NCBI GenBank assembly: GCA_905160935.1
Contig: CAJHZI010000207.1
Coordinates: forward strand, 868,001-932,000
DNA length: 64,000 nucleotides
Origin: Enchytraeus crypticus
Taxonomy: Eukaryota > Annelida > Clitellata > Enchytraeida > Enchytraeidae
Direction of reading: 5' to 3'
The notes under the pieces are model-generated. The model had not been told where the DNA came from, ran no database searches, and saw only the letters and a program-made list of their open reading frames with translations. A program made the translations under genes and the position numbers. The stretch's first letter is position 1; each line of letters begins with the position of its first letter. Positions 46,285-61,200 of this stretch are shown here, piece after piece.

Positions 46285-49200
46285 CTACAGAGCTGGTATA
46301 TGAGACCTAGCAGCTTGAAATCTAGCTGTTTTAACTTCAGAAAACTTCCCAATTGCTGGCTTTGCATTACCCATATCACTGGCTGCTTGAAATTCAACAG
46401 CTTCAAGGCCTGCCTTTACAGGTCTTTCAGCTTCGTATTTAATACTTTTAGACCTTGAAGTTATAGGCATTTCTGATTTAAGAAAAACCGATGGAAGCTT
46501 TTCAGGATTTACAGCTACAGGCCTTATATTCTCTGGGCTAACATCTTCAGGTCTATTAGTCTTAGGCCTAACGTCCCATAGCCTAACGGAATACCGACTA
46601 TCAGTGTCCGGTTTAGCGACTAAAGACCTAGTATCCTCTAACTTAACTGTCTCCCGACTTACAGCGTCAGGTTTAGCAGCTTCAGGCCTAGTATCTGCCA
46701 ACCTAAGAGCTTCAGATCTGAGAACATCAGGCTTGGCAGCTTCAGGTCTAGTATCTTCCATTCTACGAGTTTCAGATCTGAGAACATCCGGCTTGGCAGC
46801 TTCAAGTCTAGTAGCCTCTAATTTTTCTAACTTAACTGTCTCCCGACCAACAGCAGCAAGGTTGTTAGCAGCTTCCGGTGTAGTATCTACTAGCCCAACG
46901 GTTACAGGCTTTACTTCTTGATTTTCCTGTTCAGACAGTTTGTTCGCTAATAGTTTAGACAGAGTGAGCTCTGTGGCACTAATGGTCCTCATGGTAGAAG
47001 AATAGGGCTGATGTGAAGTGAATGAGTTTGAAGGTAGTAAAAAGCCGGGAGTAGACAATGGGGCTAACCTTAACGCAGCAGGCGACGACTGGGCTTCCTT
47101 TAAAACAGCAGAAGCTGATAGAGAATTTTCAGAATCAAGAGGCAAGCTTGATGTCGTAGTATTAACAGCTATGCCTGAAGATGTTTTATTGATTCTAGTC
47201 GACCTCTCGTAACCGAGCCCAATAGATATACTCTTCACTGAGTAACAAAAATTTTACAAGGAATTTAGACATGCGACTTAATCGAGAGAATATCCTAAAA
47301 TATTATTTTTCTTCACTTATAAAATTTTCATTTATTAGTTTTTATAGCATTACATATAAAAGGTTATTAGGGTTTTTATAGCATATTAGTCGAAGCTGAG
47401 GAAGCCATAGGGGCCTACCTCGTCATAAGCAGAATCCCAAGAATAACAGTATAACATGTAAGATGATTTAAAAATCCATTCGTATGTGGACATGAAGAGG
47501 AAACGGAAGACAGAGAAGAGTGAAGGCGTGAGATACCATGGACCTGCAGTTGGCAGTGCACTAAGAGAGAGATGGCATTAACTTTTCGAAATAAGTCATT
47601 GTCATAATTTACTCTCCACCAGAGACACAATTTCTCTCCTGCTTCAGTTTCCACTCCATCATTTTTTTCTTTTTAAAGGAACACTGTGTAAGTTTCTTGA
47701 CATAGTATGTATTAGATTTATATTTATACCATAGATAATAATCTTAATGAAAACTTAAAACTGTATAACTTGTGACATTCAAACTGACTTAAATTTACCT
47801 TTAAACTTAACCTTTTGAAGACTTCCTATTCCTAACATAAAACAGCCTATTTATAGATAACTGCATGTAGAGTATAACTGTACATTAACATGTCAATGTT
47901 ATATGCAGAAACAAACGCTAATAAAATCAACGTCAGTTTCTTTTCTTGAAACGATAGCTATAAAATTATTCACAAACTTATTTATATAAATAAATTAAAA
48001 AAGAACCTTTAACAGATGCACAAGTCTTGATGTCTATAGAGCGAGACCATCTCATCGCGCTCAATGGAGCAAATTCAATCTGTAAACATACACAAGAAGT
48101 TTACACATTAAAAAACTTCCTTTTAGCGTGCCTTATATCCCTATTCGGGGTCGACACGGAGGGGACTAGATAGGAAATGGAACATTAAGGTCAGCTACCC
48201 ATCGGCCTGACACCATCAAGTGTACACGACTAGGTTTTTATTCGCACCTCGGAAGAAAAAACTCACGTCGCTACGCAGTCTCGAACTCGAGACCTCTCAT
48301 TTAAGAGGTGAGCTCTCTACCACTGTACCACGAGCCGTTCCAAACGCCTCGAAGCAGTTTTACACATAGATCTAGAATAAATATTATATACAGTACATAC
48401 TGCACTCTAGAAAAGATCAAAATCGATAAACATGTACACAACATATGGACAAAAGTTTGTACACAAATCAGAACAAAAACAGCCAACATTAAATTAAAGC
48501 AAATTTATTCATTTTTCTATTAATCTTCAAACACACTGGGGTTGACAGCGCTTAACTTTGTCTATACACCCACACTTTACCTAAGTGTGCTAAATCCTGC
48601 CCTCAATATATACAAAGATAAATACATTATAAGCACAAAGACTTACATTGCTGTTACTTTGACTACTACAGTAACAGCATTTATTACCACAATAACAGTA
48701 TTTAGTGCTACAGTAACAGCATTTACTATCACAGTAACAAGGTTTATTATTATATAATATGTACTTACATAAAGGAACTGCGTGATACCATATTTAAGTA
48801 AAGATTATTATAAGAAAGCAAGGTTTTAAGCTATAACTGCTAAAGGAAATTTTAAAGGCCACTTCTGTTGCACAAGAATATGTCCGCAACTGCCCGATAG
48901 GAATTAGAACTGCAACGCCCTCAATTCTACACCTACCATGCAGGTTTTCAATCAATTCGGCAATCAATCATCAAGCACTTAGTGGAGCCAATAATTAACA
49001 GTCATCTACTCTGAGACCGGGCCGCAACGCAATAGAACAACAAGTAATTTTAAATGTAAGTAGCGATGACGCAGAAATAGAGGAAGACATAGGTAAATTA
49101 CCTCAGACGATATATTTGTCCTAGCTAAAAGCTAAATAAAGGTCGAAGATTAGCCCCTAAGATGGGATCATCTTGCAGTTACATGATGTGCCCTTACTGA

Positions 49201-61200: not shown

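Follow-up and report, generated by a model that had tools for sequence, protein, structure and literature searches.

The 64,000-nucleotide stretch of Enchytraeus crypticus DNA analysed here (contig CAJHZI010000207.1, positions 868,001 to 932,000; hereafter the window) contains a minus-strand gene at 61200..46285, with its ATG at 61200 and the end of its stop codon at 46285. We located the exons singly, by reading frame and splice sites and without the exon coordinates of the initial annotation, and obtained 15 exons that sum to 2205 nt and encode 734 residues plus the stop codon. The earlier claim of fifteen exons, 2205 nt and agreeing phases was thus reproduced by an independent exon location on the minus strand, although the equality of the totals has to be read with exon 14 in mind, which was initially chosen because the sum stood 73 nt short of the earlier 2205-nt total. 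With their phases in agreement, exons 1–13 (61200 to 49308) encode 393 residues, and the joined frame is open across 734 codons. Thirteen of the 14 introns have GT-AG boundaries, and the intron after exon 8 begins with GC.

Elsewhere in the window, the minus strand carries a tandem pair of rhodopsin-type GPCR genes (Pfam 7tm_1) at 7364–10031 and 17655–20482, each as two open frames that are split near the same profile position (110/133). An array of 43 copies of the hexamer GCTGGT at 6131–6389 is open in several frames, and the + frame tried gave no Pfam match.

Structure of the gene and its product

All exons are on the minus strand. Exon 1 (61155..61200) holds the start codon and encodes residues 1–16, a basic N-terminus, before a GT donor in phase 1; the alignment with the intronless paralog C574 (paralogs are named by their contigs) begins at residue 1. 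Exon 2 (60520..60603) encodes the putative type II signal anchor, with a hydropathy peak at residues 20–38, and is resembled by a stretch of C403 (tblastn E 0.69), in which the acceptor phase is equal as judged by eye. Since the hydrophobic segment is preceded by basic residues and followed by five N-x-S/T sites, the protein is predicted to be a type II single-pass membrane protein, in keeping with the anchor initially claimed at about residues 20–36. Exon 3 (59506..59571) encodes a linker ahead of domain 1 and was placed by its GT-AG boundaries and phase only, as no separate paralog exon matching it was found. A 54-nt A+T-rich repeat is arrayed in about 11 copies at 58008–58623; on the strand of the gene, the array lies upstream of exon 4 at a distance of 34 nt.

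The first ILEI domain starts in exon 4 (57865..57973), which carries cysteines 69, 75 and 97 and has counterparts in C300, C403 and C170. It continues through exon 5 (56595..56650), with R112 at the position of POMGnT1 R129; exon 6 (55573..55623); exon 7 (54132..54216), with D161 at the D179 position; and exon 8 (53519..53645), with R189 at the R207 position. The donor of exon 8 is the GC mentioned above, and C300 has GT at that place. Domain 1 ends in exon 9 (52702..52771) with the fourth cysteine, 227. Exon 10 (52318..52489) then encodes the inter-domain linker and the start of domain 2, including cysteines 256, 262 and 284, and has counterparts in C300, C403 and C110. The R129, D179 and R207 positions of domain 2 are taken by R297 in exon 11 (51848..51948), D346 in exon 12 (50873..50957) and R374 in exon 13 (49308..49434). 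Exon 14 (48007..48079) would complete the domain with its fourth cysteine, 413, and leaves at a weak donor, gttctt. Exon 15 (46285..47237) encodes a 317-residue tail of degenerate 10/20-residue repeats and the stop codon; AATAAA is absent within 1500 nt after the stop, and ATTAAA occurs at 384 and 1289 nt.

The joined 393 residues of exons 1–13 contain two stretches that match the Pfam ILEI profile (PF15711; 7.1e-42 overall). Taken alone, domain 1 scored 65.5 bits (6.3e-18) and domain 2 scored 83 bits (2.3e-23), both above the curated cut-off of 27 bits applied per domain, so that the two tandem ILEI domains proposed from the sequence by eye were borne out by the profile. Even single exon frames matched ILEI unaided: the frame at 53489–53695 reached 24.7 bits, below the cut-off, and that at 49293–49475 around exon 13 reached 27.6 bits (4.1e-6), above it. 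Each domain has its full set of four cysteines (eight of eight), and the two domains are 29% identical to each other.

Paralogs in the host genome

The genome (524 Mb, 802 contigs) was searched with the Pfam ILEI profile, and the 10 matches listed all lie on other contigs; the window gene was not seen in a second copy (haplotig) in the genome. In C574 (L001:445-1914; G000:C574:64803-66272), one frame of 489 codons without introns encodes a hydrophobic anchor segment at the N-terminus, then a stalk rich in EKPAEKP repeats and then the two domains; it aligns to window residues 1–425 with 33% identity (1.25e-78). Because C574 has anchor and both domains in one intronless frame, and the exons found in C300 and C403 correspond in order, the window gene is confirmed, at the level of sequence comparison, as a single gene with two ILEI domains. 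C574 is intact and intronless, whereas the other well-read members of the family have many introns, and it looks like a retrogene.

Counterparts of window exons 4–14 were found in order in C300 (11 of 11 matched, some only at E 0.2–1.3 when taken singly), for which the anchor exon was not identified. Six of the ten C300 exons that could be delimited have the same lengths as in the window, namely exons 6, 7, 8, 9, 12 and 13 (51, 85, 127, 70, 85 and 127 nt), and exons 5, 11 and 14 differ by multiples of three; the tenth, exon 4, was wrongly delimited and left out of the length comparison, and exon 10 was not delimited. In C403, counterparts also occur in order, those of exons 2, 4, 7–11, 13 and 14 being detected by tblastn (weakest E 8.5) and those of exons 6 and 12 by eye, and a counterpart of exon 5 was not found. 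Two further loci were partly read: C170 has stretches of both domains, and C110 has domain 2 and the inter-domain linker, its domain 1 not having been read. The genome thus has at least five tandem-type genes with both domains and probably a sixth, and the window gene is not a one-off. In practical terms, the outcome is a gene model with good support, together with at least five paralogs that form a family and include an intronless member.

A tree was built from 12 domains, which include domains 1 and 2 of the four paralogs as well as FAM3 and POMGnT1; C170 and C110 were omitted as incomplete, domain 1 of C403 was entered without exon 5, and the exon 4/5 junction in domain 1 of C300 is wrong by one or two residues. 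One branch (93/94) separates the four first domains from the rest and another (75/84) groups the four second domains, in a tree with long branches in which none of the nine inner branches reached the strong-support mark of the tool. Against the three paralogs, identity is 34–41% for window domain 1 and 32–41% for domain 2. Since first domains group with first domains and second with second, and identity within a type (32–41%) exceeds that between the two window domains (29%), the duplication that produced the two domains probably preceded the divergence of the four genes.

Some other ILEI matches in the genome are divergent. They are paired on two contigs, L003/L004 (C441) about 6.4 kb apart and L005 (C777) about 1 kb apart, and these pairs are possibly further multi-ILEI genes; the L003 frame matched FAM3 in the PDB at only E 0.03. 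An ILEI exon at G000:C600:1310679-1310795 has the POMGnT1 stem as its best match (2.5e-6), and the locus is a probable annelid POMGnT1, judged from this exon.

The same genome includes a mitochondrial contig of 15,205 nt, in which the 12 in-frame stops of the COX1 match are all TGA and the first 295 residues of COX1 are open under code 5. The order of the protein genes, all on one strand, is cox1, cox2, cox3, nad6, cob, atp6, nad5, nad4L, nad4, nad1, nad3, nad2, with the large rRNA preceding nad1 and all protein genes other than COX1 named by eye from their translations; we take this order to be the annelid ground pattern. COX1 fragments on G000:C361, C424, C796, C373 and C166 have TGA stops, plus TAA or TAG in four of the five, and are likely nuclear copies of mitochondrial DNA.

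Conservation of the sugar-contact residues

In the human POMGnT1 stem, GlcNAc is contacted by R129, D179 and R207, as reported in PMC9802357; R129 and D179 are also named as contacts in PMC9437275. A single numbering offset of +86 places all three on the POMGnT1 PDB chain, and in the domain alignment their equivalents are kept in both window domains, the triad being matched at the level of sequence only. Domain 1 of C403 has a tyrosine at the D179 position, and its R129 position was not recovered. According to PMC9802357, C. elegans Fam3L2, which keeps the triad, binds GlcNAc, as do FAM3C and FAM3A; C. elegans Fam3L1, in which the D179 and R207 positions are not conserved, is described there as lacking GlcNAc binding. 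Furthermore, a phage adhesion protein module that is placed structurally with the POMGnT1 stem keeps R129 and D179, as described in PMC9437275.

Because both domains keep all three POMGnT1-stem contacts, we lean, if only slightly, towards reading the window protein as a type II-anchored, two-site GlcNAc-binding double-ILEI protein of the Golgi or the cell surface, GlcNAc binding and cell location both being predicted. The 15-exon gene would encode a type II protein whose lumenal or extracellular part comprises two FAM3/ILEI domains and a tail that is predicted to be probably disordered. Each domain would be expected to bind carbohydrate of the GlcNAc type in the manner of the POMGnT1 stem, and two such modules per anchor could allow two-site binding of glycoproteins, either in the Golgi, as for the POMGnT1 stem, or at the cell surface, with the repeat tail serving as an extended arm.

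The initial annotation had left the choice between a lectin-like and a ligand protein, and of these the residues best support the lectin-like one. The ligand is retained as a lower-ranked alternative, in which the anchor would be cleaved and the double-domain part shed to act in a cytokine-like manner through a receptor, as a FAM3-type signal for which sugar binding is secondary. Its appeal comes partly from the closest solved relatives: the first PDB sequence match is FAM3B for domain 1 (1.7e-16) and FAM3C for domain 2 (2.9e-17), followed by other FAM3 proteins and then by the POMGnT1 stem (4.2e-9 and 1.4e-10), although the E-values for FAM3 and for POMGnT1 come from alignments of unequal length. 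FAM3C is also described in PMC9802357 as rescuing the thermotaxis defect of the C. elegans famp-1 mutant. However, both sugar triads of the window protein are intact, and we regard the signalling ligand as somewhat unlikely.

Support for exon 14 and the repeat tail

Exon 14 is the doubtful exon of the model. The 2.07 kb that separate exons 13 and 15 offered 49 candidates. In the comparison with the end of C574 domain 2, exon 14 shared a score of 24 with one other candidate; in the comparison with the ends of domain 1, other candidates did better, at 27 for the window gene and at 23 for C574, where exon 14 reached 18. Equal-sized regions of the window reached a score of 29 (60 regions). Taken by itself, the alignment score was thus no better than chance and was rejected as proof of the exon, and a comparison with C300 and C403 was used in its place.

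In this comparison, the pattern W-x3-[IV]-[DET]-x3-C at the place of exon 14 was also present in the three paralogs C574, C300 and C403, and the exon itself reads IEYAGNSWPTPIDKRICVPTL in C300, LELGGPGHWPKPITEKFCLPKK in C403 and IEFAPLSAMRWSRSIDIKTCASVK in the window. The pattern was composed after the four stretches had been viewed, which makes its count post hoc: it has seven matches in the six frames of 254,000 bases, four of them being the four stretches and three lying elsewhere. In addition, the exon is entered in phase 0 and left in phase 1 in the window, C300 and C403, and the exit lies four codons and one nucleotide past the cysteine (C403 by eye). Exon 14 is retained because the paralogs keep its pattern and the intron-bearing ones its phases. 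As C300 and C403 leave the exon at the same point and in the same phase, the poor gttctt donor of the window gene is, by this comparison, at an intron position common to the paralogs.

At 322 codons from stop to stop, the frame of the tail exon exceeds every other open frame in the window. It matched no Pfam family at E up to 10, and its best PDB match (0.2) was unrelated. The G+C content by codon position is 0.52, 0.49 and 0.29 in the tail and 0.48, 0.44 and 0.41 in exons 1–14, and the differences between 60-nt repeat units fall on codon positions 1, 2 and 3 in numbers of 10, 12 and 26 (60 sites each), a count that took in three of the four units and omitted the most divergent one. An antisense frame of 176 codons (46391–46921) shares the third positions of the tail, so that this signal shows the coding register and not the strand. 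The strand was assigned because the sense frame is the longer one and its phase-1 acceptor fits exon 14. With the 317-residue frame, the matching phase and the coding signal, the repeat tail of the initial annotation stands as a reading frame; its membership of the gene is predicted, the join to exons 1–14 drawing on splice phase and coding signal alone.

A homologous terminal tail exon was not recognised in C300 or C403, both of which are expected to have a fifteenth exon since both leave exon 14 at a donor, and the tail looks gene-specific when judged against these two genes. We did not treat the window tail and the EKPAEKP stalk of C574 as homologous repeats, as they lie at opposite ends of the domains. 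The gene could instead end in or just after exon 14, with the repeat exon belonging to another gene or being only sometimes spliced in, as the weak exon 14 donor, the end of C574 at 23 residues past its last cysteine and the lack of a recognised tail exon in C300 and C403 would allow. However, C300 and C403 splice out at the homologous point in phase 1 (C403 by eye), and the repeat exon offers a fitting acceptor on the same strand and a frame of unmatched length in the window; we therefore find an early end quite unlikely and keep the tail in the model. That the gene is a decaying paralog released from constraint, with the GC donor, the weak donor and the repeat tail as signs of decay and an identity of only 32–41% to the equivalent domains of three paralogs, is very improbable in view of the frame open over 734 codons and the retention of every one of the eight domain cysteines and six sugar-contact residues.

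Comparison with known ILEI proteins

The vertebrate FAM3 family is defined by a single ILEI domain, and FAM3 proteins carry an N-terminal hydrophobic segment, as does the window protein. FAM3A, FAM3B and FAM3C (PDB 7ecq, 2yop/2yoq and 5lc2-5lc4) share the ILEI domain with four cysteines, but they have one such domain and no repeat tail, whereas the window protein has two domains and a tail. The TMEM2 cell surface hyaluronidase (PDB 8c6i) shares an ILEI-like stretch with the window domains, as a weaker PDB match (0.0091 and 4e-6). CEMIP and TMEM2 carry a G8 domain, which was absent from exons 1–13 and the tail frame in the Pfam search.

The POMGnT1 stem (PDB 5ggf-5ggp) resembles the window domains in its ILEI sequence match and in the R129, D179 and R207 positions, and POMGnT1 also has a type II anchor followed by the stem, as described in PMC9802357. 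However, its single ILEI domain is followed by a glycosyltransferase catalytic domain, and none was found in the window protein, the GNT-I catalytic domain being absent from exons 1–13 and the tail frame in Pfam.

Although the initial annotation did not recognise the double-ILEI architecture, tandem FAM3-like domains have been published for C. elegans FAMP-1/M70.4, at its N-terminus, and an amphioxus gene of similar structure is mentioned in the same source (PMC9802357). FAMP-1 is described there as needed for temperature memory in the nematode, and M70.4a is named a POMGnT1/FAM3 orthologue in PMC8478517. Like the window protein, FAMP-1 has two tandem FAM3-like domains, at least one of which carries the GlcNAc triad; window domain 1 keeps the triad, whereas Fam3L1 of FAMP-1, as portrayed in PMC9802357, does not. 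The nematode FAM3-like domains, in the same account, always precede a domain that is akin to a portion of the catalytic domain of POMGnT1. By this description, FAMP-1 continues into that domain, whereas the window protein continues into a repeat tail without a Pfam match, and a POMGnT1-derived C-terminal domain was not recognised among the Pfam and PDB matches of the tail. Because no domain related to the POMGnT1 catalytic domain was found, we regard the window gene as a variant of the tandem FAM3 type and not as a FAMP-1 member, set apart from FAMP-1 by the published description. What is particular here is the ILEI pair lacking a recognisable POMGnT1-derived C-terminal domain and, in the window member, the long repeat tail.

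No paper on an annelid tandem-ILEI family was found in the open-licence literature, and the family may be annotated elsewhere. Tentatively, annelids may carry stand-alone, membrane-anchored, two-site FAM3-type lectins that lack a glycosyltransferase part, with the tail gained by the window member, a proposal that we would sooner doubt than assert. In PMC9802357, the relation between FAM3, the POMGnT1 stem and FAMP-1 is called obscure, and FAM3 is proposed to have arisen early in chordates. Tandem ILEI proteins that form a protostome family and have no recognisable enzyme part bear on this proposal. If the annelid lectins are real, enzyme-free FAM3-like proteins would not have originated with the chordates; they would either go back further in animal evolution or have become separated from the enzyme independently in protostomes, and the repeat tail would be a gene-specific arm gained by the window member. 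With both triads intact, the window protein offers a way to test whether the domain originally served to bind sugars.
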